Positions 4,616 to 51,018 of a stretch of DNA of 64,000 nt are shown here, one piece after another. The notes under the pieces were generated by a model. That model was not told the DNA's origin. It did no database searches and saw only the letters and a list, made by a program, of their open reading frames with translations. Location: positions 26,059-90,058 of IMG/VR virus record IMGVR_UViG_3300028854_000012. One strand, 5' to 3'. This stretch comes from a virus. Each line of letters opens with the position of its first letter. Within the stretch, counting starts at the first letter, position 1. The translations under genes were made by a program, and so were the position numbers.

Positions 4616-5158
4616 ATGAAGATAACCGAATTGAAACAAACATCTAAAATTGGTCATGTTTATTTGGACTTAGATGGGGTGATTGCTAATTGTGATCAGG
4701 GTATTGTAGATTACAATCATATAACTATGGAACAGCATAAAGCGGCTGGATGGGATAATGAATACTGGCATAATGTATTAGATAATGCTGATATTAAAGA
4801 ATTTTATATTAATTTAGAATTTGAACCAAATGGACAAGCATTGTTAAATTGGTTTATTAGTCATCATATTCCTTTTACTTTTTTAACACGACCATGCAAA
4901 GAGCCAAATACACAGGCTTGTATTGAAGGTAAGAAAATTTGGTTGAAAAGAAATGGATTGGGAGATATTCCTGTTTTATTTGAAAGAGATAAAGAAAAAT
5001 ATGCTGTTTCTTCTAATGGATTACCAAATATTTTAATTGATGACCACAGCGGAAATATAAGTAAATGGAATAAAGCTGGCGGTGTTGAAATTTTATATAA
5101 ATGGGAATTGTTTCCAGATGTTATAAAGAAACTTGAAAAATTATTGCTTAATCAATAA
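4616..5158 (+). CDS. HAD-superfamily 5'-nucleotidase-like phosphatase
   Basis: 180 residues. HAD motif I is VYLDLDGVIANCD (residues about 15-27, nucleophile in DLDGV). FTFLTRPC fits motif II (T), and NILIDDHSGN fits motif IV (DD). The layout matches small phage/bacterial deoxynucleotidase-like HAD proteins. The protein begins MKITELKQTS, which resembles the short N-terminal leaders on the following genes and contains an I-T-E. If that is a capsid-targeting peptide, the enzyme may be packed in the head; this is inference. Confidence 0.7.
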   Translation: MKITELKQTSKIGHVYLDLDGVIANCDQGIVDYNHITMEQHKAAGWDNEYWHNVLDNADIKEFYINLEFEPNGQALLNWFISHHIPFTFLTRPCKEPNTQACIEGKKIWLKRNGLGDIPVLFERDKEKYAVSSNGLPNILIDDHSGNISKWNKAGGVEILYKWELFPDVIKKLEKLLLNQ

Positions 5159-5166: not shown

Positions 5167-5505
5167 ATGAAAATAAACGAAGTTATAATTGATAAGAAAG
5201 CTATATTGTTCACAGTTAAAAATGCTGTTAAAAATAGCGGTGCCGTTTTTAATAAAACCAATTCTTTTCAAGTTTTAGGAATCAATTTTTCTGTAGATGT
5301 TTCAGACGGAGAACCAAAATTATATATTGGCGATATGTTGTCCACTTCAAATATTGAAGGTGGAGCAAAAGGACAATGTATAAATTATCTTTATAATATT
5401 TTGTTGAGCAAAGAACGTGATAAAGAAGAACCATTGGATTTAGATGCATCGGTTGCGAATAAATTTTTTAAGCATGTTGAATCTCAAAAGTGGCGAAATA
5501 GATGA
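5167..5505 (+). CDS. Unknown protein with MKINE N-terminus
   Basis: 112 residues, starting MKINEVIIDKKAILFTVKNA. No Shine-Dalgarno precedes the ATG; a late promoter lies 5 bases upstream. The body (LGINFSVDVSDGEPKLYIGD) looks like a small alpha/beta fold. I-N-E at residues 3-5 is a possible prohead protease site. No family recognised. Confidence 0.55.
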   Translation: MKINEVIIDKKAILFTVKNAVKNSGAVFNKTNSFQVLGINFSVDVSDGEPKLYIGDMLSTSNIEGGAKGQCINYLYNILLSKERDKEEPLDLDASVANKFFKHVESQKWRNR

Positions 5506-5653: not shown

Positions 5654-6232
5654 ATGAAAATAACTGAATTATTGGAAGATTCCTCCGACACTATGACTTT
5701 TTGGCATGGTGGGAGGAATTTACAATTTAATCATATGGAAATGCTTGGAGCCAAGCATGGCCGATGGGAATATGGGCCGGGGCTTTATTTGACTAATCAC
5801 TACGAAACTGCAAGAAAATATGCTAAAGGTGGTGGTTCGACATATAAAGTTACGGTAGAAAAAGGAACGGATATTAAACAGATTACCATTGATCTTAAAG
5901 AAGTTATTGATTTTGTAAAAAGATATGTCATTGGAAAACATCGTTCTAATATTATTGATGATTTAAAAAACAATCTTAATAAACTTGGGATATTACAATT
6001 AGAAGTTTTAGTTAACCTTTGTGTGAACTATGATGCCTTATCTCCAAAAAATACTGTTGAACTAAGAAAGTTTTTAGTTAATCATGGTGCAGATTATGAA
6101 ATTGTTCGTGGATATGGTGGAAGAGATGAACATATTGCTATAATTTTTAACCCAACTAAAATTAAAAATATTGAGCCAATTAAAGCATCTGATGTTACGT
6201 TGGATCAATGGAAACTTCTTATAAACAAATAA
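5654..6232 (+). CDS. Putative ADP-ribosyltransferase with capsid-targeting-like N-terminus
   Basis: 192 residues. MKITELLEDSS contains I-T-E and L-L-E, matching the L/I-x-E cleavage rule of T4 prohead protease. The body shows FWHGG (H18), YGPGLYLTN (Y45) and RDEHIAIIF (E159), in the order of the H-Y-E triad of diphtheria-toxin/PARP-type ADP-ribosyltransferases. AAKGGG-like glycines follow strand two. T4 Alt is the precedent: an ADP-ribosyltransferase packed in the head and injected to modify host RNA polymerase. Substrate here is unknown. The fold is inferred from motif order, not from a search. Confidence 0.55.
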   Translation: MKITELLEDSSDTMTFWHGGRNLQFNHMEMLGAKHGRWEYGPGLYLTNHYETARKYAKGGGSTYKVTVEKGTDIKQITIDLKEVIDFVKRYVIGKHRSNIIDDLKNNLNKLGILQLEVLVNLCVNYDALSPKNTVELRKFLVNHGADYEIVRGYGGRDEHIAIIFNPTKIKNIEPIKASDVTLDQWKLLINK

Positions 6233-6248: not shown

Positions 6249-8765
6249 ATGAGATTGCGACATTTATTTGAGGCATTAACACTACGAAAAGAGCTTGTAA
6301 TTTATTCGGGTTCTTTTAGTCCGTGGCATCTCGGTCATTCTGCGGTATATAAATATCTCAATAAAAAATTCCCTCAAGCTGATATTTTTGTTGCATCGTC
6401 TTCAAAAAAGACGGTGGATCGTTCATTTTCGTTTGATGATAAAAAATTTCTTGTCTCTCAAGCTGGAATTCCAGAAGATAAGTTTGTAGAAGTTATCGCT
6501 CCTTATAAAGCAAATGAAATCACGAAGAATTATGATCTAAATAATACTGTTTTAATTTTTGCTATCAGCAGAAAAGATAAAGATCGTTTGGCTCGTCCAA
6601 ATAAGAAAAATGGAGAAGCTCCATATTTTTTGCCATATATTAATTCTGAAGAATGTGAACCATTTTCTAAACATGGATATTTTATAGTAGTTCCTACCGT
6701 TAAGTTTTCATTATTGGGAAAATCAATAAATTCCGCAGCGCAAATCCGTGAAATGTATAAGAATTCAAATGATAGAACCCGTTTGAAAATATCTAAATCT
6801 CTGTATCCTAATTCAAATAAAATTCAAGAAATTAAAGATATTCTTGATACTATTCTTGTGTCATCAACGCTTATTGAATATTCAGGTGTTGTTTCGGATA
6901 AGGTTGATGACGATGGTTGGATTCTCCCAAATGGCGAATTTATACCCAATGGTTATCCTACTGGTTATGGTGGACATAGTTCAACGCTTTATAATTATAA
7001 AATTAAATCATATGATGAAGCCTACGATAAAGGATGGGTTCATTTTATAATTAGGGATAATAACGGGATATTAGATACCGACAATGCAGAGGTAGAAGAT
7101 AACAAAAATATTGATACTTTTGTTCGTAATAGATTAAAAGATTTCCCATATGTGACATTAACTATCTGGCCAAAAAATGACAATGAACGTAAAACAAAAA
7201 AATTTGAATGGAATGGTAGATATTTTAATCAAGTTAATAATACAAAAGTTTATGAGTCATTAGATAACTATAATACTATTACCAATTTTGGTTGGTTACT
7301 CCCCAATGGAACTTTTTTAGAAGGATGGTCACACTCTAAGATTCTTAGAAGAGAAGGCTTGAAGGATTATATTGATGCCTATGAATTGGGATGGCTTCAT
7401 TTTCAATTTGGTAATAATTATAGTAGAAGCGGTAGTATTATTTCATCTTATGGATTATTTGGAACAAACCAAAGTCTTCAAGTAGTCCAAAAAACAGTAA
7501 AAATCGGAGCAAATAGAATATCAAAAAATATTGATAATATCTATATTCAATGTTCGGAAGGTATATTTAGATATGATAGAGATTATTTTACATTTAAAAA
7601 AGTTAGAAATACTGTTCTTGAATCGATAATTACAGAAAATGAGAACATTACAAAAGATGGTTGGTTTACTCCTAACGGCAAATTTGTTGAAAATCGTTTT
7701 GGTAGTGGGCATTTTGGAACATTGCGTAACGTTGGTATAGATTCTTATGATGAAGCCTTTGATTTAGGGTGGGTTCATTTTTCTGGAACTAATAATCCAC
7801 ATGGTGTGTGTAACTTGCAAATAGGAGTTTCTTATTCAGACAATATAGAATTTATTAATAATATTGCTAAAAAACTTGAACATAATTTTCCAATTATTAA
7901 ATTAATAGAAAAATGGTATAAAGTTTTTAATAGATATGAATGGGATGGAAAAGATTTTAGATCGGTAAATCGTAATAAGTTTAATGAATCAGTTATAACA
8001 GAAAACATTAAACAAGATGGTTGGCTTCTTCCATCTGGTCAATTTATTCCTAATCCTTATGGGTCTGGACATTGGGACACTTTAAAGAAAAAAGGATTTA
8101 AATCTTATAGTGATGCATGGCAACGTGGCTGGATGCATATATCATTTTTTAATGATAGTTGTATTATATCAGCATATTCAGAATTGGAAGAAATGGAACC
8201 ATTGTTAACAAAAATTGCAAAACAAACAGAAAAGGTTTATCCAATTATACGAGTTGATTGTGGCTCTGGACGTAATTATAAGAAATATGAATGGACAGGA
8301 AAAGAATTTGTTCCTATTAAAATAAAAATGTTTAATGAATCACCAGATTTCAATTATTCGATGTTTCATAATCGAGATAAAGAATTAAAAAATGTTAAAT
8401 TTAACTGTGTTGTTACTCGTAATAGTGGTGGTGGAACTTATTTAGAAGTTATGGCAATGCTGGATTTAGAACAAATTGGTTATATACATATTTTATATGA
8501 TAAAACAGCTTTCAATTATTCAATTGGTATGGTTAGGAGAAGTGATATTGAATATGAATGGAAGGGAACCGGTCTTGGACAAATGTTATATGATAAAGCA
8601 ATTCATTATGCAAAAGAAAAAGGTTGTAAATATTTATGGTCAGATACAGAACGATCAGTAAATGCAGAAAATGCTTGGAAAAGATTATCGAAGAGATACC
8701 CAATAACTTTTGTAACAAGCAAATCAGGAATGAAATATTATCAAGTTGATTTGGACAAAATATAA
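6249..8765 (+). CDS. Nucleotidyltransferase - fourfold repeat - GNAT fusion, candidate capsid polyprotein
   Basis: 838 residues. Residues 1-9 (MRLRHLFEA) look like a cleavable targeting peptide (L-F-E). Residues 15-200 are a nucleotidylyltransferase domain with HLGH at 27-30, as in NMN adenylyl- and cytidylyltransferases. Residues about 218-690 carry four copies of a repeat with DGW-x-LPNG-x-F, then SYDEAYD-x-GW-x-HF (starts near 220, 347, 470, 589). Residues 697-838 are a GNAT acetyltransferase with WKGTGLGQ as the acetyl-CoA loop. I/L-x-E motifs (LIEY, ITEN twice) sit between units. The gene abuts the next one (ATAATG). Roles are inferred from motifs. Confidence 0.65.
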   Translation: MRLRHLFEALTLRKELVIYSGSFSPWHLGHSAVYKYLNKKFPQADIFVASSSKKTVDRSFSFDDKKFLVSQAGIPEDKFVEVIAPYKANEITKNYDLNNTVLIFAISRKDKDRLARPNKKNGEAPYFLPYINSEECEPFSKHGYFIVVPTVKFSLLGKSINSAAQIREMYKNSNDRTRLKISKSLYPNSNKIQEIKDILDTILVSSTLIEYSGVVSDKVDDDGWILPNGEFIPNGYPTGYGGHSSTLYNYKIKSYDEAYDKGWVHFIIRDNNGILDTDNAEVEDNKNIDTFVRNRLKDFPYVTLTIWPKNDNERKTKKFEWNGRYFNQVNNTKVYESLDNYNTITNFGWLLPNGTFLEGWSHSKILRREGLKDYIDAYELGWLHFQFGNNYSRSGSIISSYGLFGTNQSLQVVQKTVKIGANRISKNIDNIYIQCSEGIFRYDRDYFTFKKVRNTVLESIITENENITKDGWFTPNGKFVENRFGSGHFGTLRNVGIDSYDEAFDLGWVHFSGTNNPHGVCNLQIGVSYSDNIEFINNIAKKLEHNFPIIKLIEKWYKVFNRYEWDGKDFRSVNRNKFNESVITENIKQDGWLLPSGQFIPNPYGSGHWDTLKKKGFKSYSDAWQRGWMHISFFNDSCIISAYSELEEMEPLLTKIAKQTEKVYPIIRVDCGSGRNYKKYEWTGKEFVPIKIKMFNESPDFNYSMFHNRDKELKNVKFNCVVTRNSGGGTYLEVMAMLDLEQIGYIHILYDKTAFNYSIGMVRRSDIEYEWKGTGLGQMLYDKAIHYAKEKGCKYLWSDTERSVNAENAWKRLSKRYPITFVTSKSGMKYYQVDLDKI

Positions 8766-11470
8766 TGATTATTGAAAATTTTATAAATGAATTATATAAC
8801 GATAAGCCACTTAAAAATGCTCTTGTAGCATTGAAGCCAGAAATTGTGCGAAGAGTTCAACGGGAATATGATAAGTGGAGAGGTGGAATGGGTATTTGTG
8901 ATTATATTGCACGGACGATTCGTTATGTCATAGAAGAAGATATTCCAGATGCAAAAGTAAGTATTATAGATAAAGAAAGTTTTCATTATTGGGTAAGAGT
9001 GTGGTTAGGAAAAGAATGTTACGATGTTGATATTCCATTCGGAAAATATGAAAGATATAACTATAAAAATGATAAATTTATAAAAATACCAAATGTAGTA
9101 TTTAATATTCATGATATTTTCATTTATCGAACCTCCACATCATTTTTAAAAGCACCATGGGAAATAAAAAAATCATACGTTCCACACAAAGATGATCAGT
9201 ATTATCATTTAAATGATCATTTACTTGTTAAAGAATCTCCAGATTTTAATTATACAAGATTTAATAACAGAGATGAAGCTATTAAGAAAATAAAATTTAA
9301 AGAAGTTGAGAGTAATTATCTTGGAGAATATTGTAATATTACTGCTTTTTATAAAAATGATGATGTGGGGGTTATAAATTTATTTAAATATAAACCAGAT
9401 TCAGAAGTAATAGTTGAATCTATAGAAATTAAACCACGTTGGAAAGGGACAGGATTGGGGCAGTTGTTATATGAAAAGGGTATAGCATACGCAAAGAAAA
9501 ATGGTTTTGAAAATTTCTGTTCAGATACAAATAGGTCAGATGAAGCAAATAAAGCGTGGCAAAGATTGTCTCAACGATATCCAGTGAGATTACTGAAAAT
9601 AAAAATTAGGGGAGCGATGAAAAATCGTTATGAGATTGATCTTAGTAAAGTTCCTTTAAAAGAATCAATAATATTTGAAGAGCCGGATTTTGGATATAAA
9701 ACCTTCAACAACAGAGACGAGGAATTAGAACAATTAAAATTTAGATATGAGGTTAAAGCATCATTAATAGCTATCACAATTTATAAAAATTCTGATGATA
9801 GTATTAATCAACAATATCCATTAGGAGTTATTGAAGCTATAAAAGATTCTTTATGTATTACAATTGAAGGGGAAGATCAATCTAAAGTTAATTCGTGGTT
9901 TATTACCGTTGCTAGTATACCAAATGATTGGAGAGGAACTGGTTTAGGACAGATATTATATGAAAAAATGATTATTGCGGTTAGAAGTGTTGGTGGAAAA
10001 TATTTATGGAGTGATGTTAGCTTAAATAAAAATTCAAGGTCTGCTTGGGAAAGACTTTCCAAAAGATTTACAGTATTAAAAATTAAAAATAGATATAGAA
10101 TGACTATACCAGAAAAACAAAAAAGATTGAGAATTAAAGAATCGCCAGATTATGGGTATAAAATCTTCAACAACAGAGAAGAAGAAATTTCTAAACTGAA
10201 ATGGGTTGTTATTCATAATGAAGATGGAATTATTGTAAAAGCAGTTGAAGAGAATAGATATAATAGACCAAGTGGTGATAGTATATATGGAAATTATGAA
10301 GGTTTGATAGTTGCAAGACCTATTCCAAAAGATGCAACAATTGGAAAAGGAATTCAAATAACTTTAAGTAAATTACATAATACACAAACAAAAACTTGGC
10401 AAAGCACCGGTTTGGGTCAAATGCTATATGATCGGATTATTCAAGAAGCTAAGAAAGCTGGTTATGATTTTATAACTAGTGATTTCGATAGATCATTAGA
10501 TGCCAATAAAGCATGGAAGAAAATATGTCAACGATATAATGTAACAAAAGTAAAAGCATTTGATGGTGATAAGTATTTTAGAATAGATTTGGAAGATGTT
10601 CCAAATAAAATAAATGAAGATATCGGTAATATTGTAAAAACAAAATCATTATATTATGGAAGTGCGGCGCGTCCAAAAACAAAAACAGAGTTGCTTATCA
10701 ACAACAGGGTTAAAGGAGAGATTTATTTAAGTTCACCTATGGATTTTGATAACGATGATTTGGACTGGTCATTTGATGTTCCTATTGAAAAAACAGAAAT
10801 GATAACCTACGTTGATATTGATCCTATCTATCGTAATAGAGGTTATGGAAAATTATTATATAATGCTGCTATGAAGAATGCAAAACAACGCGGAATAAAA
10901 ATAATTATAAGTGGTATGCCACAATCATCAGATGCATTACGGGTATGGAATAGTTTAGCTAGAGAAGGAAAAGTTAAGAAGAATCATGATTGGGGAATGT
11001 ATATCGATTTAGAGAATATTTCAGATAAAATAAATGAATCACCAGATTTTGGTTATCAACAGTTTAATAATAGGGATGTTGATTTTAAAAAAATTAAATT
11101 TGAAACTGAAATGAATGCAACTGGGTTTTTTATTTTTTCATATTTTGATGGTCGTGATGCCGGTCATATTGGATGCACTATTAGAGAAAAACTTTTTCCG
11201 CCACCAAAAACATATAAAGTCAGTCAATTAGTTATAATACAGAGTGTTGATACAGAAAAAGAATGGAGAGGAACAGGTTTAGGACAAACTCTTTATGATA
11301 TGGCAATTAAGAAAACTAAAGAACTTGGATATAAATATTTTAGAAGTGACATTTCATTATCAAATGATGCATTTAATGCTTGGAAAAAATTATCACAAAG
11401 ATATCCTGTTACAAAATATTTAACAAGTTTAGGAAAACCATATTTTGAAATTGATTTAGAGAATATTTAA
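8765..11470 (+). CDS. Five-GNAT protein with N-terminal cysteine-hydrolase-like domain, candidate capsid polyprotein
   Basis: 901 residues. The N-terminal 140 residues carry GICDYIA (C45), FHYWVRV (H74) and YDVDIP (D87/D89), a C-H-D order seen in papain/transglutaminase-like folds. Five GNAT modules follow, starting near residues 156, 304, 457, 617 and 757. Four start with the same signature (E-PDF/Y-x-Y then F-NNR-D/E) and have GTGLGQ; the fourth has RNRGYGK. The linkers read IFEE, IKES, INED and INES, matching L/I-x-E cleavage sites. The N-terminus MIIENFINEL also holds I-N-E. I infer processing into separate acetyltransferases inside the head. Confidence 0.65.
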   Translation: MIIENFINELYNDKPLKNALVALKPEIVRRVQREYDKWRGGMGICDYIARTIRYVIEEDIPDAKVSIIDKESFHYWVRVWLGKECYDVDIPFGKYERYNYKNDKFIKIPNVVFNIHDIFIYRTSTSFLKAPWEIKKSYVPHKDDQYYHLNDHLLVKESPDFNYTRFNNRDEAIKKIKFKEVESNYLGEYCNITAFYKNDDVGVINLFKYKPDSEVIVESIEIKPRWKGTGLGQLLYEKGIAYAKKNGFENFCSDTNRSDEANKAWQRLSQRYPVRLLKIKIRGAMKNRYEIDLSKVPLKESIIFEEPDFGYKTFNNRDEELEQLKFRYEVKASLIAITIYKNSDDSINQQYPLGVIEAIKDSLCITIEGEDQSKVNSWFITVASIPNDWRGTGLGQILYEKMIIAVRSVGGKYLWSDVSLNKNSRSAWERLSKRFTVLKIKNRYRMTIPEKQKRLRIKESPDYGYKIFNNREEEISKLKWVVIHNEDGIIVKAVEENRYNRPSGDSIYGNYEGLIVARPIPKDATIGKGIQITLSKLHNTQTKTWQSTGLGQMLYDRIIQEAKKAGYDFITSDFDRSLDANKAWKKICQRYNVTKVKAFDGDKYFRIDLEDVPNKINEDIGNIVKTKSLYYGSAARPKTKTELLINNRVKGEIYLSSPMDFDNDDLDWSFDVPIEKTEMITYVDIDPIYRNRGYGKLLYNAAMKNAKQRGIKIIISGMPQSSDALRVWNSLAREGKVKKNHDWGMYIDLENISDKINESPDFGYQQFNNRDVDFKKIKFETEMNATGFFIFSYFDGRDAGHIGCTIREKLFPPPKTYKVSQLVIIQSVDTEKEWRGTGLGQTLYDMAIKKTKELGYKYFRSDISLSNDAFNAWKKLSQRYPVTKYLTSLGKPYFEIDLENI

Positions 11471-11917: not shown

Positions 11918-12655
11918 ATGAAAATTAAAGAGCTTCTCCAAGAATCAACCATACCACAGAATGTAATTACTATTCTTCGAGAATTGATGCCTGTTTTGAA
12001 ACCGGGATTATCAACACCATTAATTAAAATAGTAAATCATATAAATCCAAAATATTTAGGTATGGATAGTTGGGGTTATAGAATTAAAGGTGGAGTTGAA
12101 TCCTGTGATACATTTACTACCATATATCTTCAAAAATATATTCTTACAGATGAAAAAACATTAAAGAGGGTTTTAGCGCATGAGCTTTGCCATCATGAAA
12201 TTTCACTTACAATAGATACTGAACGATTTAATATATTGGGATTTAAAAGATATATGTCTTATTGTAAATCCCATAGAAATGAAAGTCATGGAAAAGATTG
12301 GAAGGAAGTTGCAAATAGATTTAATGCAATATATGGAAAAGATTTTGTAACTAAAAACTCAGATATAGATTATATTTTAGATACTTCTCTTATGAAACCT
12401 TTTTATGTTGTATTACAAGATTATAAAGGAAGAAAATGGTTTGCAAGCACTGTTAGGTTTGGAGATAAACAGAAACAATATTTATCAAGACAATATTCTC
12501 CTTGGAAAATGTTTAAAACTAATGATCGATCTTTTATGACAAAATATTTTGGTGTTGGGTGGTGTAAAGCCCCACAAACTCATATAGAAGATAAATGGGA
12601 TGATCTTTGGAAGAGCGGCGAAGTCATATTATCTGGAAATTTGGATAAAGAATAA
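11918..12655 (+). CDS. SprT-like zinc metalloprotease with capsid-targeting-like N-terminus
   Basis: I place the start at ATG 11918 (MKIKELLQEST), two bases after the Dps stop, not at 11882 inside Dps. 245 residues. AHELCHHE is the HExxH zinc motif, and SHGKDWKEVANRF supplies the third histidine in the SprT pattern. SprT/Spartan proteins cut DNA-crosslinked proteins. The C-terminal third (FYVVLQDYKGRKWFAST) is beta-rich. L-Q-E at residues 7-9 is a likely prohead protease site, so this protease may be packed in the virion. Confidence 0.7.
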   Translation: MKIKELLQESTIPQNVITILRELMPVLKPGLSTPLIKIVNHINPKYLGMDSWGYRIKGGVESCDTFTTIYLQKYILTDEKTLKRVLAHELCHHEISLTIDTERFNILGFKRYMSYCKSHRNESHGKDWKEVANRFNAIYGKDFVTKNSDIDYILDTSLMKPFYVVLQDYKGRKWFASTVRFGDKQKQYLSRQYSPWKMFKTNDRSFMTKYFGVGWCKAPQTHIEDKWDDLWKSGEVILSGNLDKE

Positions 12656-12673: not shown

Positions 12674-13174
12674 ATGAAAATTTCTGAACTTTTAAAAGAG
12701 ACTGCCTCTTGTGGTTCAACAAGTGCAGGTTCAATTGCGACTGTTAATGCAACAGGAACTCCACCCAAAGGTCAATTCTTTGGAGGAGACCCATCTAGTT
12801 CAATTTATGGAGTTATACATAAAAATAGAAAAAACAGAAAGAAACCAATTAAAGAAGGTTTAACTAAAAATTCGCGTGGGACATATCTTTTTATATATAA
12901 TCCTGATGTTGGTTTGTTTATTCGTAAAGGAGAATTTTCTAATCATGGTAGATTATTTGGAAAAGTATTTGATAGAGTATATCCAAAAATACAATTTGAT
13001 GAATTTGATCGCGGTTATATAGTAGTTTCTATCGATGATAAGAGTTTACTAATAATGCCAACAAGTGCTCGTGAATATTTTGATTATGACATAGAAAAAA
13101 TATTTGAAAATAAATATTCTAAGAAATATAAAATAAAAATGTCGAATCGTTTTAGAAGTTATTATTTAAATTAG
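12674..13174 (+). CDS. Putative internal head protein sharing the capsid protein's mature N-terminus
   Basis: 166 residues. MKISELLKE (cut predicted after L-K-E, residue 9) is followed by TASCGSTSAGSIATV. The major capsid protein has L-R-E followed by SATTGSTSAGNIATL at its own predicted cleavage site. A second site, I-K-E, precedes GLTKN about 45 residues later. The C-terminal part (LFIYNPDVGLFIRKG, FDEFDRGYIV, MPTSAREYFDYD) is paralogous to the gene at 13182. Function of that domain is unknown. Confidence 0.6.
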   Translation: MKISELLKETASCGSTSAGSIATVNATGTPPKGQFFGGDPSSSIYGVIHKNRKNRKKPIKEGLTKNSRGTYLFIYNPDVGLFIRKGEFSNHGRLFGKVFDRVYPKIQFDEFDRGYIVVSIDDKSLLIMPTSAREYFDYDIEKIFENKYSKKYKIKMSNRFRSYYLN

Positions 13175-13181
13175 AGGTAAT

Positions 13182-13847
13182 ATGAAGATAAAAGATATAA
13201 TTCGTGAAAGTGTCGATATTGGGAAGGGTGTCCCTCCAGAAGAATCAAAAAAATTCACAACATTTTTGTGGATATATCATCGAGATACTGGATTAGTTGT
13301 TCGTAGAGGACGATATGCAATGCATTCCACTATATTTTACGATATGATTCGTGATTGGCGTATGCGTTTTGATGATTTTGATCGAGGTTATATAAAACTT
13401 GATCCAAAAACTAAAACAATGTATGTAATGCCCACCGATCCACGAGAATATTTTGTGTATGATGTTAAAAAAGTATTTGAAAAAGAATTTCCAAAATGGC
13501 ATATCGAATTATTTGAAAAATGTAAATATGCCTTTAATCCCGGAAACAGATTACGCGATTCTGTTAAAGAAGCAATAAAAGAAACAATATACCTAATTCA
13601 ATATAAACTTCGTTTCTACACACCAGAAGATATACCGGATATTAAAATACAAGTATTAAATAGATTTAAGGAAACGATTGAAAGGGAAAGTTATCGAAAG
13701 AATATGATAGTTAATACAGAAATTAAAGATGAGATAGTATACGTAAAATCATCTTATGAAGGTTATAAAATAGAATTACCAAAAGTATTATCTAATAAAA
13801 ATACAATTAAAGATTTTAAAGTAACATCGGTGGCAAATGAAAAATAA
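13182..13847 (+). CDS. Paralogue of 12674 with targeting-like N-terminus
   Basis: 221 residues. MKIKDIIRES carries I-R-E. The segment WIYHRDTGLVVRRGRYAMH, FDDFDRGYIKL and MPTDPREYFVYDVKKVFEKEF matches the 12674 protein step by step. An extra C-terminal helical region of about 100 residues has no counterpart there. AGAGGTAAT lies before the start. Function unknown; tandem duplication with later divergence is likely. Confidence 0.55.
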   Translation: MKIKDIIRESVDIGKGVPPEESKKFTTFLWIYHRDTGLVVRRGRYAMHSTIFYDMIRDWRMRFDDFDRGYIKLDPKTKTMYVMPTDPREYFVYDVKKVFEKEFPKWHIELFEKCKYAFNPGNRLRDSVKEAIKETIYLIQYKLRFYTPEDIPDIKIQVLNRFKETIERESYRKNMIVNTEIKDEIVYVKSSYEGYKIELPKVLSNKNTIKDFKVTSVANEK

Positions 13848-30571: not shown

Positions 30572-31546
30572 TTAAAGGTCTGTTTCGGCAGACCTTTTCT
30601 TTTGTTTAAGATCAAGTGTGAAATTGGCCACCAATTCTTCTATTTTTGAAAAATACCAATATGGAATTATAAGCAATGGAATGTTGTTTTTCTGACAATA
30701 TTCTTGTTTAATTTTGTCCCTCTTTTGAAGTTCTATAAAAGTTTCTTCACCACCCCAATATGGAACAGAATCATAATGTTGTTCTCCTTGATATTCTATC
30801 AAACCATATAATTTATTATTTTTATCAAATACACCAAAATCAAACGGAAGAACTCGTTTATTACGACATTCATTTATTGTTGTTTGTGTTTCAAAAATCA
30901 TATGTAAATTTTCAAGTATTTTATATATTGCTTTTTCACCACGACTAACAAAACAATTTGGGCATCCATTTCCATTTAAATGATTAGCGGGTGATTGTTT
31001 GAAAAAACCATGTATTGGACATTTTATTTTTATTTTGGTGCGACCTCGTATATAAACAGATTCATTATAATCAAACCATATTCCATGAATTTTTATTGCA
31101 TCCACAACAAACTGTTCTTTTGATTTTACTCTATGCAATCGTTGCGATTCTCTCCCACAAAAAGAACAGCCATTACCATTTAAATGACAGTTTGGGATTT
31201 GCAAAAAATCTCCATGAATTGGGCAGGTAATACAAATTAATTTATAAACTCCAGAATATACAGCTTTTTTATACGAATATTTAAAATTATGAATGATATT
31301 TGCTTTTGAAATAAATGTTTCAGTAGTTTTTGTAGTGTTCAACCTAGCCTTTTCCTTCCCACAAATAGGACAACCATGATAATTTAAATGATCATGGGGA
31401 GTTTGTTTAAAAATTATATTATGTTTACGACATGTAATTTTAACTTTTTTATTTGATCTATCATATTCAACTTCAGAATAGTCATATAAATCACCATGTA
31501 TAAATTGTGCTCTTTGAATGAATTTTTCTGTGGTATAAATACGCAT
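30572..31546 (-). CDS. Homing endonuclease-like protein, zinc-module array plus PD-(D/E)XK-like nuclease
   Basis: 324 residues. Three repeats of about 55 residues, each with F-I-x-A-x-I/H-H, YDY-x, K-I-x-C-P-I-H-G and H-L-N-G-x-G-C-x-x-C, bind zinc (DUF723-like). The C-terminal nuclease has LPFDFGVF, GLIEYQGEQHY and RDKIKQEYC then IPLLIIPYW. The genes at 41517 and 47493 belong to the same family. It is on the strand opposite to its neighbours. Confidence 0.75.
   Translation of the reverse strand: MRIYTTEKFIQRAQFIHGDLYDYSEVEYDRSNKKVKITCRKHNIIFKQTPHDHLNYHGCPICGKEKARLNTTKTTETFISKANIIHNFKYSYKKAVYSGVYKLICITCPIHGDFLQIPNCHLNGNGCSFCGRESQRLHRVKSKEQFVVDAIKIHGIWFDYNESVYIRGRTKIKIKCPIHGFFKQSPANHLNGNGCPNCFVSRGEKAIYKILENLHMIFETQTTINECRNKRVLPFDFGVFDKNNKLYGLIEYQGEQHYDSVPYWGGEETFIELQKRDKIKQEYCQKNNIPLLIIPYWYFSKIEELVANFTLDLKQKKRSAETDL
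30574..30598. terminator. Bidirectional terminator hairpin
   Basis: AAAGGTCTG (30574-30582) with CAGACCTTT (30589-30597) around a 6-base loop, flanked by T or A runs. It serves the convergent VWA and endonuclease genes; the endonuclease stop codon lies inside it. Confidence 0.7.
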
Positions 31547-41516: not shown

Positions 41517-42224
41517 ATGAGAAAAAAACTTACATATGATGAATTTGTAAACAGAGCCAATATTGTTTTTAATAACATATATGACTATAGTAAATTTGTC
41601 TATATTAATAACTACACTAAAGGAATTATAATATGTTCATTACATGGCCAATTCTTACAAAAACCAAATAATCATTTACACGGTCAACGATGCTCTCAAT
41701 GCACTAACAATAAAAAATTAGACACTTTTGGTTTCATAGAAAAAGCAAAATACATTCATCAAAATAAATATGATTACTCACAGTCTAATTATATAAACAG
41801 TGCTACTAAAATAAAAATTGTTTGTCCTATTCATGGAGTGTTTGAACAAAAACCAAACAATCATCTATCTTCGGCACAAGGTTGTCCAAAATGTAAAGAA
41901 GCTAAAGGAGAACGATTAATACGAAGTTGGTTAGTGAAAAATAAAATAAAGTTTGATAGTCACTTTACTGTTTTTGGTTATAAAAATGAAAAATCTTTGC
42001 TTTTTGATTTTGCTATATTTGATGATCAAAAACTTGTTGGTTTAATAGAATACAATGGAGAATCTCATTCTAAAATAATACTGAATGAAACAAAGACATA
42101 TCACAAGGATCAAATTAAAATTGATTATTGTAAAACACATAATATTCCATTACTGATAGTTTCCTATGAAGAAGTAACACAACTCAATACATTTTTAAAA
42201 GAATTTGTGGCTAAACAAGCATAA
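41517..42224 (+). CDS. Homing endonuclease-like protein, two zinc modules plus PD-(D/E)XK-like nuclease
   Basis: 235 residues. Two modules of the KYDYS-x-S/F-x-YIN ... CPIHG-x-F-x-QKPNNHL ... C-x-x-C type, then LLFDFAIFDD and GLIEYNGESH. Smallest of three such genes in the window (also 30572, 47493). No Shine-Dalgarno before ATG 41517. It stands between the glycosyltransferase and prohead core genes. Confidence 0.7.
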   Translation: MRKKLTYDEFVNRANIVFNNIYDYSKFVYINNYTKGIIICSLHGQFLQKPNNHLHGQRCSQCTNNKKLDTFGFIEKAKYIHQNKYDYSQSNYINSATKIKIVCPIHGVFEQKPNNHLSSAQGCPKCKEAKGERLIRSWLVKNKIKFDSHFTVFGYKNEKSLLFDFAIFDDQKLVGLIEYNGESHSKIILNETKTYHKDQIKIDYCKTHNIPLLIVSYEEVTQLNTFLKEFVAKQA

Positions 42225-43249: not shown

Positions 43250-44965
43250 TTGAATAAATATCAAGAAAAGATAACAGAATTATATTTAAAACAGCCCAAA
43301 CACGCCATAAAAATGATTTTTTCTAATACTGACTTAAAAAAATGGGTTGAAAATAATTGTGATCCTGCTAGTCCAAATAAATTAACAATGGTTTATACTG
43401 CTTATCATAACATTTTGCTTGTTTGTCCATGTGGGTCGGGTAAGTTAAGAAAATGTAATCGTTTTAATAACGGGCTTGCGTTTTGTGGAACGCGCTCGTG
43501 TTCTATAAATGCTATTATAATTAAAGAAAAAACAAAACAAACCAATCTTGAAAGATATGGTGTTGTTGATCCAATGTCTAACTTTGAAGTTCAAGAAAAA
43601 GGAAGGAAAACAAATCTTGAAAGATATGGAACAGAATTTACATTTCAAAATAAAGATGTTAAAGAAAAAATAAAAAATACTAATGTTGAAAGATATGGAT
43701 TTGAAAATGTTTCACAAAATAGTAATATCCAAAGAAAAAGAAAATTATCAAATTTAGAAAAATATGGATTTAACCATCCGTCTTCAACTATTGCTTTTAG
43801 GGAAAGAGTAAAAAACACTAATCTTGAAAGATATGGTGTGGATAATCCTCAAAAAATAAATGAAGTTAAAGAAAAAACAAAACAAACTAATCTTGAAAGA
43901 TATGGATTTGCATATATTAATCAAAGACATTATTCTAAATTAGCAAAAGAGATATTATTTGATATTGAAAAATTTAAAAGTTTTCTCGAACAACATGGTG
44001 TAAAAAATATGGCTTTATTATTAGAAACCAGCGAATCAAATATATATGTAAAACATCTAAATTTTGGTTTAAATATTATTAGTGCCTCTTCGTCATCTTA
44101 TGAAAGCGAAATAGCTACTTGGCTTTTAAGTCATAATATTGAATTTATTCAAAATTCAAAAAAAATTATTTCTCCATTGGAGTTAGATTTTTATTTACCA
44201 AATCAAAAAGTAGCTATAGAATTTAATGGTTTATATTGGCATAGTGAGATTGAATGTAAAAATAAAAATTATCATTTTGATAAAATGCAAAGATGTAATA
44301 AATTAGGTATTCGGTTAATTCATATATTTGAAGACGAATGGCGAAATAAACGAGAAGTTTGTTTGGATGTTTTATCTCGTATTTTAAATATTAAGATGAT
44401 CCATGTGGCTGCAAGAAAATGTCAAATTAAAGAACTTACTAATAAAGATTCACGTGAGTTTTTAGAAAATAATCACCTTCAAGGATATGCCTCTGCCACC
44501 ATTAATCTTGGTATGTTTTATGAAAATAATTTAATTCAGCTTTTAACCTTTAGAAAACCGAGATATAATAAAAATATTCAATGGGAAAATGTGCGGTGTT
44601 GTAATAAAATAGGATATCAAATCATCGGTGGTGTGGGAAAATTATGGACATATTTTCTTAGAAAATATAATCCAGAATCGGTGGTTTCTTATTGTGATTT
44701 GCGCTGGTTTACTGGAGAAACATATAAAAAATTATTATTTCATTTGAATCATATTACAAAAATTCAATATTATTATACAAATTATAAAAATAGATGGCAT
44801 CGATCTTTATTTACCAAAAAGAAATGTATTAAAAAAGCAATATCATTAAATAATATAACCGAAAATCTATTAAACCAAATGACAGAAAATCAAATTACAA
44901 AAGAAATTTTGCATTTAGATAGAATATGGGATTGTGGACAACAAACATGGATTTGGAAACAATAG
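43250..44965 (+). CDS. Homing endonuclease-like protein (ERYG-repeat family)
   Basis: 571 residues. TTG start with GAGGT upstream, supported by homology of its N-terminus (KQPKHAIKMIFSN) with the 51188 protein. CPCGSGKLRKCN suggests a zinc site. At least seven TNLERYG-V repeats follow. Nuclease core: LELDFYLPNQKVAIEFNGLYWHSE, then IHIFEDEW. C-terminus LDRIWDCGQQTW is shared with 51188 and the fragment at 53098. Confidence 0.75.
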   Translation: MNKYQEKITELYLKQPKHAIKMIFSNTDLKKWVENNCDPASPNKLTMVYTAYHNILLVCPCGSGKLRKCNRFNNGLAFCGTRSCSINAIIIKEKTKQTNLERYGVVDPMSNFEVQEKGRKTNLERYGTEFTFQNKDVKEKIKNTNVERYGFENVSQNSNIQRKRKLSNLEKYGFNHPSSTIAFRERVKNTNLERYGVDNPQKINEVKEKTKQTNLERYGFAYINQRHYSKLAKEILFDIEKFKSFLEQHGVKNMALLLETSESNIYVKHLNFGLNIISASSSSYESEIATWLLSHNIEFIQNSKKIISPLELDFYLPNQKVAIEFNGLYWHSEIECKNKNYHFDKMQRCNKLGIRLIHIFEDEWRNKREVCLDVLSRILNIKMIHVAARKCQIKELTNKDSREFLENNHLQGYASATINLGMFYENNLIQLLTFRKPRYNKNIQWENVRCCNKIGYQIIGGVGKLWTYFLRKYNPESVVSYCDLRWFTGETYKKLLFHLNHITKIQYYYTNYKNRWHRSLFTKKKCIKKAISLNNITENLLNQMTENQITKEILHLDRIWDCGQQTWIWKQ

Positions 44966-45061: not shown

Positions 45062-45706
45062 ATGAATAAACAATCTCTATTTGAATATCAAAATCCATCT
45101 ACTATGACAATTGAAATTGATGAGTCCATAGATGCCACTGGAAAGAAACAAAAAGACCTTTATATGAAGGGTATTTTTATTCAGGGTGATGTTCGTAACC
45201 ATAATCAGCGCATTTACCCTGTTAGTGAAATTAAATCGGCTGTTGATTCTTTAAATAAATTAATTGAGGGGAATATTCCAGTTTTTGGACAACTCGATCA
45301 TCCAGATGATTTAAAAATTAGTTTGGATAGAGTATCGCATGTCATTACTAGTATGTGGATGGAGGGAGCTAATGGTTTAGGAAAATTAAAAGTTCTTCCT
45401 ACACCCATGGGTAATATTATTCGTTCAATTCTTGAAAGTGGTGTTAAACTTGGTGTAAGTAGCCGTGGTAGTGGTAATGTTAATGAGAGCACAGGAACGG
45501 TTTCTGATTTTGAGATTATTACAGTAGATTGTGTTGCACAACCATCGGCACCAAATGCTTTTCCAATTCCAGTATATGAAGGTTTATTAAATCGTAATCA
45601 TGGATATAAAACATTGGAATTAGCAGAAGAAGTTAATTCAAACCCAAGAGTTCAGAAATATTTGGCTGAAGAGATTACTCGTTTTATTAAAGATTTAAAG
45701 AGATAA
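45062..45706 (+). CDS. 21: Prohead protease, T4 gp21-like
   Basis: 214 residues (T4 gp21 is 212). FGQLDHPDD carries the catalytic histidine, LGVSSRGSGN the serine, and ITVDCVAQPSAPNAF is a family hallmark. This serine protease cleaves prohead proteins after L/I-x-E. Its presence makes the many L/I-x-E N-termini in this window meaningful. Confidence 0.9.
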   Translation: MNKQSLFEYQNPSTMTIEIDESIDATGKKQKDLYMKGIFIQGDVRNHNQRIYPVSEIKSAVDSLNKLIEGNIPVFGQLDHPDDLKISLDRVSHVITSMWMEGANGLGKLKVLPTPMGNIIRSILESGVKLGVSSRGSGNVNESTGTVSDFEIITVDCVAQPSAPNAFPIPVYEGLLNRNHGYKTLELAEEVNSNPRVQKYLAEEITRFIKDLKR

Positions 45707-47164: not shown

Positions 47165-47506
47165 ATGCATACTTTAAGAGAGTTATCTAATATCATATCC
47201 GAAGCCGAAACAATCTTGGTTGAATCTGAGCAAGAATGTAAATGGTGTCAAGAAGTTTATCCTCTTAGTAGGTTATCTAAGTTTTGCAGCAAAAAATGTC
47301 GAGATGCATATAATGATCATTTTGAGGATAAATCTGATGATCCAATAAAGAAAGAAGTTAAGGAAGGATTTCCATATACCGACGATAGGCCATCTCCTAT
47401 AACTTGCAAAGCGTGTGAAACAGTAAATTTTGTAAATCGTAAAACTTGTCGTAATTGTGGAGAAAGTCTTATTCCAAATAAAAATATTATATTCAACTTT
47501 GAATGA
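47165..47506 (+). CDS. Zinc-finger protein with LxE N-terminus
   Basis: 113 residues. MHTLRELSNIISEAETILVESE carries I-S-E and L-V-E. CKWCQEVYPLSRLSKFCSKKC and CKACETVNFVNRKTCRNC are two zinc modules; the second is RanBP2-like. Third gene in a row with this layout. Its 3' end overlaps the convergent endonuclease gene by 14 bases. Confidence 0.5.
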   Translation: MHTLRELSNIISEAETILVESEQECKWCQEVYPLSRLSKFCSKKCRDAYNDHFEDKSDDPIKKEVKEGFPYTDDRPSPITCKACETVNFVNRKTCRNCGESLIPNKNIIFNFE

Positions 47507-48608
47507 ACAACCGCAATAAATTTTTTAACAATTTTTCTGTATTATTTTTATCTTTATAGTTTACCACAAGAAGTGGAATATTATTGACCTCACAATACTG
47601 TATTTTTACACCATCTCTTTTTTTCTGCAACAAAAAATCATTACTAGCTTGTTCTTGAGTATTATTATACCATCGGAGTGGAAAAAAATGTTGTTCCCCT
47701 TGATATTCGATTAACCCGATCATTTTTTTATCTTTAAAGATAGCGAAATCAAATGGTAATGGAAGAATATGTTTACATTCTGGTATGCGAAATTGTCTAA
47801 TATATTGTATGTCTAAAATTTTAAGAACATTGTCAATTAATCGTTCTCCAATAGATTCGTTACAACTCGGACAACCTATATTTCTTAGATGATTGTTAGG
47901 TAATTGATTAAAATCTCCGTGTATTGGACAGGTAATTGTAACTTTAGTTGTTGAATTGATATAGTTAGTTTTTGAGTAATCATATTTGCCCATATGGGTT
48001 TTGTTTGCTTTTTCAATAAATAAAGAAGCAGACATACTTAATGTTTTAGCTCTATGAGAAACAGCACAAATGCTACATCCAGCACCAAATAAATGGGCAG
48101 ATGATGTTTGATTAAAATCTCCGTGTATTGGACAGGTAATTGTAACTTTAGTTGTTGAATTGATATAGTTAGTTTTTGAGTAATCATATTTGCCCATATG
48201 AGTTTTGTTTGCTTTTTCGATAAATATTTCGAGGGACATTTTTTTAATATTACTTCTTCCACATTGAACACACCCATGACCAGTTAAATGACTATTCGGT
48301 GTTTGATTAAAATCTCCGTGTATTGGACAGGTAATTGTAACTTTTTTAAGAGCGCCACAATACAAAGTTTTTTCATAAATATATTTGTTATTGTGTTTTG
48401 AATTGGCAGAGACTACGAAATTTTTATTTAGGCTATTAGCACAATTTTTACACCCATGACCAGCTAAATGACTATTCGGTGTTTGATTAAAATATCCGTG
48501 TATTGGACAGGTAATTGTAACTTTAGTTGTTGAATTGATATAGTTAGTTTTTGAGTAATCATATTTGCCCATATGGGTTTTGTTTGCTTTTTCGATGAAG
48601 TAAGTCAT
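47493..48608 (-). CDS. Homing endonuclease-like protein, four zinc modules plus PD-(D/E)XK-like nuclease
   Basis: 371 residues from ATG 48608, which has CATAAATA five bases upstream on the minus strand. Four modules of FIEKANKTHMGKYDYSKTNY ... CPIHGDFNQ ... GC-x-x-C. Three of them are almost identical in DNA as well as protein. The nuclease core is LPFDFAIF, GLIEYQGEQHF. It lies between head genes and opposite to them. Confidence 0.75.
   Translation of the reverse strand: MTYFIEKANKTHMGKYDYSKTNYINSTTKVTITCPIHGYFNQTPNSHLAGHGCKNCANSLNKNFVVSANSKHNNKYIYEKTLYCGALKKVTITCPIHGDFNQTPNSHLTGHGCVQCGRSNIKKMSLEIFIEKANKTHMGKYDYSKTNYINSTTKVTITCPIHGDFNQTSSAHLFGAGCSICAVSHRAKTLSMSASLFIEKANKTHMGKYDYSKTNYINSTTKVTITCPIHGDFNQLPNNHLRNIGCPSCNESIGERLIDNVLKILDIQYIRQFRIPECKHILPLPFDFAIFKDKKMIGLIEYQGEQHFFPLRWYNNTQEQASNDFLLQKKRDGVKIQYCEVNNIPLLVVNYKDKNNTEKLLKNLLRLFIQS
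47904..48595 (-). repeat. Near-identical DNA repeats inside the 47493 gene
   Basis: A unit of about 112 bases (starting at ATTAAAATCTCCGTGTATTG on the plus strand) occurs near 47904-48015, 48107-48218 and 48481-48595 with a few differences. A shorter copy lies at 48304-48345. The unit encodes one zinc module each time. Confidence 0.7.
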
Positions 48609-48613
48609 AACCT

Positions 48614-48621
48614 TATTTATG
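48614..48621 (-). promoter_or_regulatory. T4-late-type promoter, CATAAATA
   Basis: Five bases (AGGTT) before ATG 48608 on the minus strand, predicting a leaderless mRNA. Confidence 0.5.
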
Positions 48622-48725
48622 ATAGAAAATATGTTATTCATAAATAAAATTTTTGTTGTTTTAATACCGTTAATAATCAAAAAATATTAGTTATAAGTAA
48701 ATATTACTATAATAGGAGATACATT

Positions 48726-49833: not shown

Positions 49834-51018
49834 ATGTCAACACCGTTACTAGAAAATCGTTGGGATGATACCAAAACCGCCCTGCTTGAAGGACTAACAG
49901 GAAATCGCCGTTCGGTTATGAGTGTAGTCCTAGAAAATACTCGCAAGCAATTGCGTGAGAGTGCTACCACTGGTTCTACATCTGCTGGTAACATCGCAAC
50001 CCTTAACCGCGTCATTCTTCCAGTTATTCGACGTGTAATGCCAACAGTTATTGCTAATGAGTTGGTAGGCGTTCAGCCAATGACAGGTCCAGTTGGACAG
50101 ATTCAGACTCTTCGTGTTCGTTACGGACAGACTGATAACGTTACTGCTCCTTATCCTTGGAATACTGGCACCGTGGCTGGTGACGAAGCATTATCACCAT
50201 TCAAGATTGCCACTGCATACTCTGGTAGTGCAACTACTGGTCAAGCAGATTGGACAGCAAATTTGGAAGGTCAGGCTGGTAACAAGATCAATGTTCAGAT
50301 TCTTCGTCAGACTGTTGAAGCAAAATCACGTAAATTGTCTGCACGTTGGACATTTGAAGCTGCACAGGATGCACAAGCTATGCACGGCATCGATATTGAA
50401 GCCGAAATCATGGCTGCTTTGGCTCAAGAAATTACTGCTGAAATCGATCAGGAAATTCTTGGTTCATTGTATTCACTATCTGGAACCGATCAGACTTTCG
50501 ATCAGTCTTTAGTTAGCGGAACTGCAACCTATGTTGGTGATGAACATGCTGCTCTTGCAATTATGATCAATCGCGCAAGCAACTTGATTGCACAGAGAAC
50601 TCGTCGTGGTGCAGGTAACTGGGCAGTTGTAAGTCCAATCGCTCTCACCGTATTGCAGAGTGCAACAACTTCTGCTTTTGCAAGAACAACTGAGGGCGTT
50701 TTTGAAGCCCCAACGAACACAAAATTTGTTGGAACCCTTAATGGCAGTATGAAGATTTATGTGAATGGTTATGCAAATGACTCAGTTCCAGTGCTTGTTG
50801 GTTATAAGGGCGCAAGTGAATCAGATGCAGCAGCATTCTATTGCCCATACATTCCTTTGATGAGTTCTGGTGTTGTTCTTGACCCAGTTACCTTCGAGCC
50901 AGTGACGAGCTTCCTTACCAGATATGGCTATGTGGAATTAACAAATTCGAGTTCATCTCTTGGTAATGCTGGCGATTATTTGAGCAGCATTTCGGTAGCA
51001 AACTTGAGCTTCAGCTAA
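49834..51018 (+). CDS. 23: Major capsid protein, T4 gp23-like
   Basis: 394 residues. MSTPLLENRW, then RKQLRES with predicted cleavage after E42, leaving SATTGSTSAGNIATLNRVILP. RRVMPTVIANELVGVQPMTGPVG and LRVRYG are strongly conserved in gp23. HK97 fold. Forms the head hexamers. AAAGGAG precedes the start, and a strong terminator follows. Confidence 0.95.
   Translation: MSTPLLENRWDDTKTALLEGLTGNRRSVMSVVLENTRKQLRESATTGSTSAGNIATLNRVILPVIRRVMPTVIANELVGVQPMTGPVGQIQTLRVRYGQTDNVTAPYPWNTGTVAGDEALSPFKIATAYSGSATTGQADWTANLEGQAGNKINVQILRQTVEAKSRKLSARWTFEAAQDAQAMHGIDIEAEIMAALAQEITAEIDQEILGSLYSLSGTDQTFDQSLVSGTATYVGDEHAALAIMINRASNLIAQRTRRGAGNWAVVSPIALTVLQSATTSAFARTTEGVFEAPTNTKFVGTLNGSMKIYVNGYANDSVPVLVGYKGASESDAAAFYCPYIPLMSSGVVLDPVTFEPVTSFLTRYGYVELTNSSSSLGNAGDYLSSISVANLSFS

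Follow-up and report, generated by a model that had tools for sequence, protein, structure and literature searches.

The stretch of virus DNA analyzed here (the window, 64,000 nucleotides) belongs to a T4-like phage contig of 90,058 bases, whose head module is of the T4 type and includes the portal (phrog_213). Two adjacent open reading frames (ORFs) of the window, 6249-8765 and 8765-11470, are joined by an ATGA stop/start overlap and encode proteins of 838 and 901 residues. We propose, with a probability of about three in four, that these ORFs encode head-cargo polyproteins which would be cut by the prohead protease into some 12 modules. The proposal is based on the modules and the sites between them, on N-termini resembling a capsid-targeting sequence (CTS), on fusion and fission pairs of the same domains, and on replacement of the linkers where another head protease is present. 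The predicted processing enzyme is a gp21-type prohead (head maturation) protease encoded on the plus strand at 45062..45706 (phrog_207, 6.6e-55). A gp23-type major capsid protein is encoded by ORF 49834-51018 (phrog_138, 2.5e-97), and its N-terminal sequence contains a predicted maturation site, LRE/S (49951..49962, plus strand; a slash marks the predicted cut throughout). This site reads LRE/SATTGSTSAG, with the same Glu/Ser junction as in the polyprotein linkers.

Alignment gave the order of domains in both proteins. The 838-residue protein consists of a nucleotidyltransferase, four DGW/FGW repeats and one GNAT; the 901-residue protein starts with a domain carrying Cys, His and Asp and continues with five GNATs, the fourth of which is divergent and does not have the PDF signature. 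Unrelated catalytic domains share one ORF in both cases: nucleotidyltransferase with GNAT in the first, a Cys-hydrolase-like domain with GNATs in the second. Pfam Acetyltransf_1 scored 94.7 bits in the 901-residue protein and 23.5 bits in the 838-residue protein, where a CTP_transf_like domain was also above cut-off (22.6 bits); no peptidase family was matched by Pfam within either ORF. The acetyl-CoA loop [RQK]xxGxG is kept in all six GNAT units, with K replacing R/Q in GNAT 1 and GNAT 2 (KGTGLG in the latter). These data confirm the content that an earlier note on this DNA had read from the letters: six GNATs, a nucleotidyltransferase, four DGW-x-LPNG repeats and a cysteine-hydrolase-like domain in two adjacent proteins. 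The structure prediction proposed in that note was run on the last GNAT unit and returned a GNAT fold with an AlphaFold confidence score (pLDDT) of 82.7, resembling RimI, NatF and PaiA (PDB fold match, probability 1.00). The Cys-hydrolase domain had no match in Pfam and only a marginal one in PDB (E 7e-4), so a more specific name was dropped and "Cys/His/Asp hydrolase-like" was kept. A distant relative of this module (29% identity) was seen in a viral contig, L056 7605-8354. No match was found for GNAT unit 3 among plasmids or for the DGW block among annotated phages.

A hydrophobic-x-E (phi-x-E) site is present at every module boundary of both proteins, mostly with Ser next, and about half of these sites have the strict L/I at P3, the third residue before the cut. 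In the 838-residue protein (all features on the plus strand) the predicted CTS MRLRHLFE/A (6249..6272) is followed by module 1, the nucleotidyltransferase (6273..6878; PF01467, 44% identical to L013), ending in LIE/Y. Modules 2 to 5 are the DGW-x-LPNG repeats: repeat 1 (6879..7256) ends in VYE/S, repeat 2, which has FGW (7257..7622), in VLE/S and repeat 3 (7623..7988) in FNE/S, the last two with an additional ITE/N five residues on; repeat 4 (7989..8339) ends in FNE/SPDF. Module 6 is GNAT 1 (8340..8762; PF00583, loop KGTGLGQ). The 901-residue protein begins with the predicted CTS MIIENFINE/L (8765..8791), which aligns with MFVDDLISE/S of L011 and is predicted to be unstructured (pLDDT under 50). 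It continues with module 7, the Cys-hydrolase-like domain with C45, H74 and D87 located by alignment (8792..9235; ends VKE/SPDF; found mid-protein after VQLKE/S in L013), and module 8, GNAT 2 (9236..9679; PF00583), which has two candidate sites at its end, LKE/SIIFE/EPDF. Next are module 9, GNAT 3 (9680..10141; PF00583; IKE/SPDY), module 10, GNAT 4 (10142..10618; loop QSTGLGQ; INE/DIGN), module 11, the divergent GNAT 5 (10619..11038; loop RNRGYGK; INE/SPDF; the best Acetyltransf_CG and Acetyltransf_7 stretch in Pfam), and module 12, GNAT 6 (11039..11467). Cuts at these sites would yield products of 202, 126, 122, 122, 117 and 141 residues from the first protein and 148, 148, 154, 159, 140 and 143 from the second; except for the nucleotidyltransferase the sizes are even (117-159). 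The linkers I-K-E-S, I-N-E, I-F-E-E and F-N-E-S reported earlier in front of a PDF/Y signature were thus all found again, the divergent GNAT being the one unit without that signature. The present analysis adds the sites that separate the DGW repeats from one another, the CTS-like N-termini, and the presence of such N-termini on neighbouring ORFs.

To quantify the association between sites and boundaries, module starts were anchored independently of the site in seven proteins from five T4-class contigs and compared with 2000 composition shuffles. The pattern [LIVFM]xES occurred no more than 20 residues upstream of 14 of the 22 module starts (shuffles: mean 0.46, maximum 4), and it was 21.7 times as dense in linkers as in the rest of these proteins. 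The explanation that the motif is common because of composition was ruled out by the shuffling. In the AlphaFold models the sites fall in segments with pLDDT under 50; this applies to GNAT 6, where the segment with the cleavage site comprises residues 7-15, and to a model of residues 1-610 of the multi-domain protein, which was built from two sequences and used only to locate the least ordered parts.

The T4-class relatives amount to five contigs only, two of which, G004 and G013, are fragments. No gp21 was found in either fragment; the G004 terminase is 66% identical to that of the window. Among G000, G001 and G009 the capsid proteins are 95-96% identical and the proteases 77-80%, and the polyproteins differ in number and order of modules. 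The 901-residue protein and its G001 counterpart are 49% identical over the shared part. NUDIX, SprT, ADP-ribosyltransferase (ART) and GP88 modules are added in the polyproteins of the relatives. Larger T4-class polyproteins were also observed at L011 1546-6237 (1564 residues), L047 4743-8558 (at least 1272) and L106 16625-19999 (at least 1125); phi-x-E stands in front of many of their modules, which comprise nucleotidyltransferase, DUF6267, SprT, NUDIX, DGW and GP88. Among cultivated phages, Microcystis phage Mel-JY01 encodes a gp21-type protease together with a 639-residue protein in which a nucleotidyltransferase is joined via IIAE/GG to a second domain, with the predicted new N-terminus GGLGGHMNHPFDD.

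The strongest evidence is that a domain which stands alone behind a predicted CTS in one phage recurs in a second phage behind phi-x-E, as part of a polyprotein. A 164-residue protein of G009 is a lone GNAT starting with MLLRELFE/SPDFGY, so that SPDF lies exactly where cleavage of the CTS would leave the mature N-terminus. Similarly, MKINE/VIIDNENG begins a protein of G004 and TINE/VTIDNKKG follows ART in a G009 fusion (45%, 3e-41), and MRFEEFIVE/NKLNGLT begins a G009 protein matched after KISE/GMLNGLT in a NUDIX-containing protein of G004 (60%, 8e-154). The Cys-hydrolase is N-terminal after MFVDDLISE/S and mid-protein after VQLKE/S in G004; MRISEIIQE/TSSGGSTSAG is paired with DLEE/SASCGSTSSG; DGW proteins occur alone after FIPE/V and internally after IFE/S, INE/S and LKE/G. 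Taken together, the lone GNAT and the fusion/fission pairs indicate that the internal linkers occupy the position of CTS cleavage. An automated test, from which homing endonuclease and repeat-protein families were excluded before the final count because they had swamped the first pass, found the site at 28 of 41 junctions of fusion pairs with 10.9 expected. In control pairs, whose stand-alone member has no N-terminal site, it was present at 7 of 23 junctions (5.7 expected). Some of the automated misses are DGW pairs with the site nearer to the repeat than the tested window of residues.

The same GNAT was found in giant multidomain proteins from a second group of phages, which has an unrelated head protease and includes the cultivated Tunturiibacter phage Tunturi_5. 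There the linker reads K-x-A/S-PDF. Position P1, directly before the cut, is Glu at 13/13 T4-class junctions and Ala in 9/9 Tunturi_5-type units, one of them shifted by a residue (Fisher 2e-6, a statistic that ignores relatedness), and P3 in the latter is Lys or Arg in all units with the same single shift. Among contigs with identifiable head genes the type of head genes and the type of linker never conflict: G000, G001 and G009 have gp21/gp23 genes, and Tunturi_5, G007, G008, G010 and G011 have a protease and capsid protein of the Tunturi_5 type. The window, having phi-x-E linkers and gp21, is outside the K-x-A class and belongs to a separate group. A tree of GNAT units, which has many unresolved branches, keeps neither linker class together as a clade and places L020 (Glu) and L021 (Ala) next to each other as a sister pair (support 100/97). 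It thus appears that modules have passed from one phage group to another, the linker being altered to match the recipient; the same sister pair weakens the explanation that the motif is shared by common descent only.

Tunturi_5 proteins themselves suggest the specificity of its head protease, gp331. The observed and expected numbers of K-x-A-[AS] are 10 and 1.75 in the ejection protein, 9 and 1.45 in the DarB-like protein, and 2 and 0.17 in the capsid protein. Once the 28 proteins with the strongest enrichment are set aside, no excess is left (36 observed, 45 expected), this split having been made after ranking. Enrichment was seen in head, ejection and multidomain proteins of this phage (L008, L029-L035). 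The text of the Tunturi_5 paper contains neither mass spectrometry nor sodium dodecyl sulfate polyacrylamide gel electrophoresis.

Several points weigh against processing of the two proteins at all boundaries. P3 is V, F or M at 6 of the 13 GNAT junctions, compared with L/I in the T4 consensus, so either the gp21 of this phage has to tolerate more residues at P3 or those sites are weak. In L047/G013, phi-x-E is absent from the 20 residues upstream of two of three DGW starts. About 13 of the 41 fusion pairs share one stand-alone GNAT and are not independent, and a small number of the sites in the count belong to pairs that have nothing to do with this cargo; it is safer to count independent families, of which there are at least six. 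The model of residues 1-610 has low overall confidence (pLDDT 58). Finally, we infer packaging, cleavage, injection and modification of targets from homology and the pattern of sites. The earlier note had named linkers that vary in relatives without keeping L/I-x-E as evidence against cleavage. Such a loss has largely not occurred: phi-x-E is kept at all 13 GNAT junctions although the GNATs are only ~35-45% identical, with P3 relaxed as just described. The note's claim of a polyprotein cut by the prohead protease is thus supported by comparative evidence (gp21/gp23 genes, linkers, fusion pairs and the K-x-A phages), while its wording "acetyltransferases" is too narrow for the range of predicted products.

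The alternative that survives best is partial processing, in which only the strongest L/I-x-E sites are cut and multi-domain blocks are delivered beside single modules. The T4 consensus is strict, and strict [LI]xE precedes only 13 of 22 module starts, which favours this view; the V/F/M-x-E-S sites are nevertheless placed and conserved as well as the strict ones, and we regard it as unlikely. Less probable again is that these are classical polyvalent proteins, injected whole with only the CTS removed or processed by a zincin or SprT, the internal phi-x-E sites being relics of gene fusion. Iyer et al. reported ART, GNAT and metallopeptidase modules in polyvalent proteins and proposed zincin-like processing; a SprT-like ORF is present in the gene cluster, SprT-like modules are present in L011 and L047, and large internal proteins such as the N4 virion RNA polymerase are packaged uncut. 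Relics, however, would be expected to decay, yet across long branches all 13 GNAT junctions retain Glu at P1 while P2 and P3 vary. Moreover, with another protease the junction is K-x-A rather than decayed, and linkers were rewritten while domains were exchanged, as in L020 and L021. The idea that ESPDF is no more than a conserved strand or cap at the N-terminus of GNATs of this subfamily was rejected as very improbable: Ser-Pro-Asp-Phe is indeed kept in both phage classes, but Glu becomes Ala in the other class with Lys/Arg at P3, the segment is of low confidence and outside the core in the model, and phi-x-E also precedes the unrelated DGW, Cys-hydrolase, SprT, NUDIX and nucleotidyltransferase modules.

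Under the proposed polyprotein processing, each precursor would be taken into the prohead core via its N-terminal CTS of 8-9 residues. During head maturation the gp21-type protease would cut behind the Glu of phi-x-E, both at the CTS, which would thereby be removed, and in the linkers, and about 12 compact modules would be released: the nucleotidyltransferase, four DGW units, the Cys-hydrolase-like domain and six GNATs. These would stay in the head, enter the host together with the DNA and soon act on targets there. For the GNATs we suggest, with low certainty, acetylation of host proteins, e.g. RNA polymerase or ribosomal proteins, as the most likely activity, because the fold resembles protein N-acetyltransferases and host RNA polymerase is acetylated by some phage GNATs, phiKMV Rac among them (cited in PMC7824862).

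It is known that T4 internal proteins are brought into the head by a CTS of ~10 residues, which gp21 cleaves off after L/I-X-E (PMC9026906). Phi-x-E was found within the first 18 residues of 11 out of 12 N-termini in the gene cluster (2.7 expected, binomial 7e-7), namely both polyproteins and nine of ten neighbouring late ORFs. Upstream, on the plus strand like all six ORFs named here, are a deoxyribonucleotidase-like (5'-3') ORF with N-terminus MKITE (4616..5158; PHROG 2643, 1.5e-18), an ORF starting with MKINE/V (5167..5505), a similar TINE/V being kept inside the G009 fusion, and an ADP-ribosyltransferase-like ORF (ART-PolyVal) with N-terminus MKITELLE (5654..6232; PF18760, E 0.0011, below cut-off). 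Downstream are a SprT-like metallopeptidase ORF with the CTS-like N-terminus MKIKELLQE/S (11918..12655; PF10263, above cut-off), an ORF with MKISELLKE/TASCGSTSAGSIAT (12674..13174), resembling the capsid site LRE/SATTGSTSAGNIAT, and an ORF with MKIKDIIRE/S (13182..13847), whose G001 relative is fused after VVE/G. In ORF 12674-13174 some 18 residues (KETASCGSTSAGSIATVN) resemble the surroundings of the predicted capsid maturation site (RESATTGSTSAGNIATLN), and this was also seen in G001, G004 and G009. The predicted CTS of the 838-residue protein recurs as MRLR[HN]LFE in cytidylyltransferase-like proteins from other phage contigs (L061-L070), even though identity over the matched part is just 28-41%, which fits the expectation for a targeting sequence.

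T4 internal proteins IPI-IPIII and Alt (PMC9026906) resemble the present system in having a short CTS that ends in a gp21-type site, packaged effectors including ART, and a gp21-type protease. T4 cargo, however, is one protein per gene, and Alt is trimmed at both ends rather than split into several enzymes, whereas up to six modules are predicted here in one ORF. Polyvalent proteins (Iyer et al. 2017, PMC5512222) and P1 DarB-type antirestriction proteins, to which Tunturi_5 gp273 is related, are likewise multidomain, are predicted to be delivered from the head and draw on the same stock of ART, GNAT, NUDIX and metallopeptidase domains. Iyer et al. drew the analogy with polyproteins and proposed that zincin domains or embedded assemblin-like peptidases do the processing; here a separate prohead protease is predicted. 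T4 internal proteins and polyvalent proteins may be regarded as the two parents of the head-polyprotein idea; in the open-licence literature searched we found no description of linkers tuned to a separate prohead protease and no report of linker cutting of polyvalent proteins or polyproteins by such a protease. In the giant phages phiKZ and SPN3US a large number of proteins of the head and ejection apparatus are cleaved behind Glu by the prohead protease, some single propeptides at several sites; in the portions of PMC5694885 and PMC10052503 available to us these multiple cuts trim propeptides, and release of several folded enzymes from one precursor is not reported. In polyproteins of eukaryotic RNA viruses a viral protease also frees several functional domains from one precursor. 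This is an analogy only: here a DNA phage, a herpesvirus-type serine protease inside a capsid and modules shuffled between genes are involved.

Head polyproteins may well be a general delivery architecture of DNA phages, in which single-domain effector genes with a CTS fuse and split freely, the CTS site becomes a linker, and modules pass between lineages whose head proteases are unrelated, their linkers being rewritten for the protease of each recipient (phi-x-E where it is gp21-type, K-x-A where it is Tunturi_5-type). It has long been asked which proteins enter the host along with phage DNA, and annotation cannot tell. If the architecture is general, linker motifs would expose both the list of virion cargo and the specificity of an uncharacterized head protease: an N-terminal CTS together with the same site between modules would mark cargo and predict each mature product, and K-x-A in Tunturi_5 would be the first case of a specificity obtained from sequence only. 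A dozen effectors would be delivered compactly, at fixed stoichiometry, by one or two targeting signals. The stock of modules (GNAT, ART, SprT, NUDIX and nucleotidyltransferases) provides a catalogue of candidate enzymes for host takeover or counter-defence.

Elsewhere in the window, homing-endonuclease-like or mutually related ORFs are present among the structural genes at 1585-2865, 30572-31546, 41517-42224, 43313-44965, 47493-48680 and 51188-53050.
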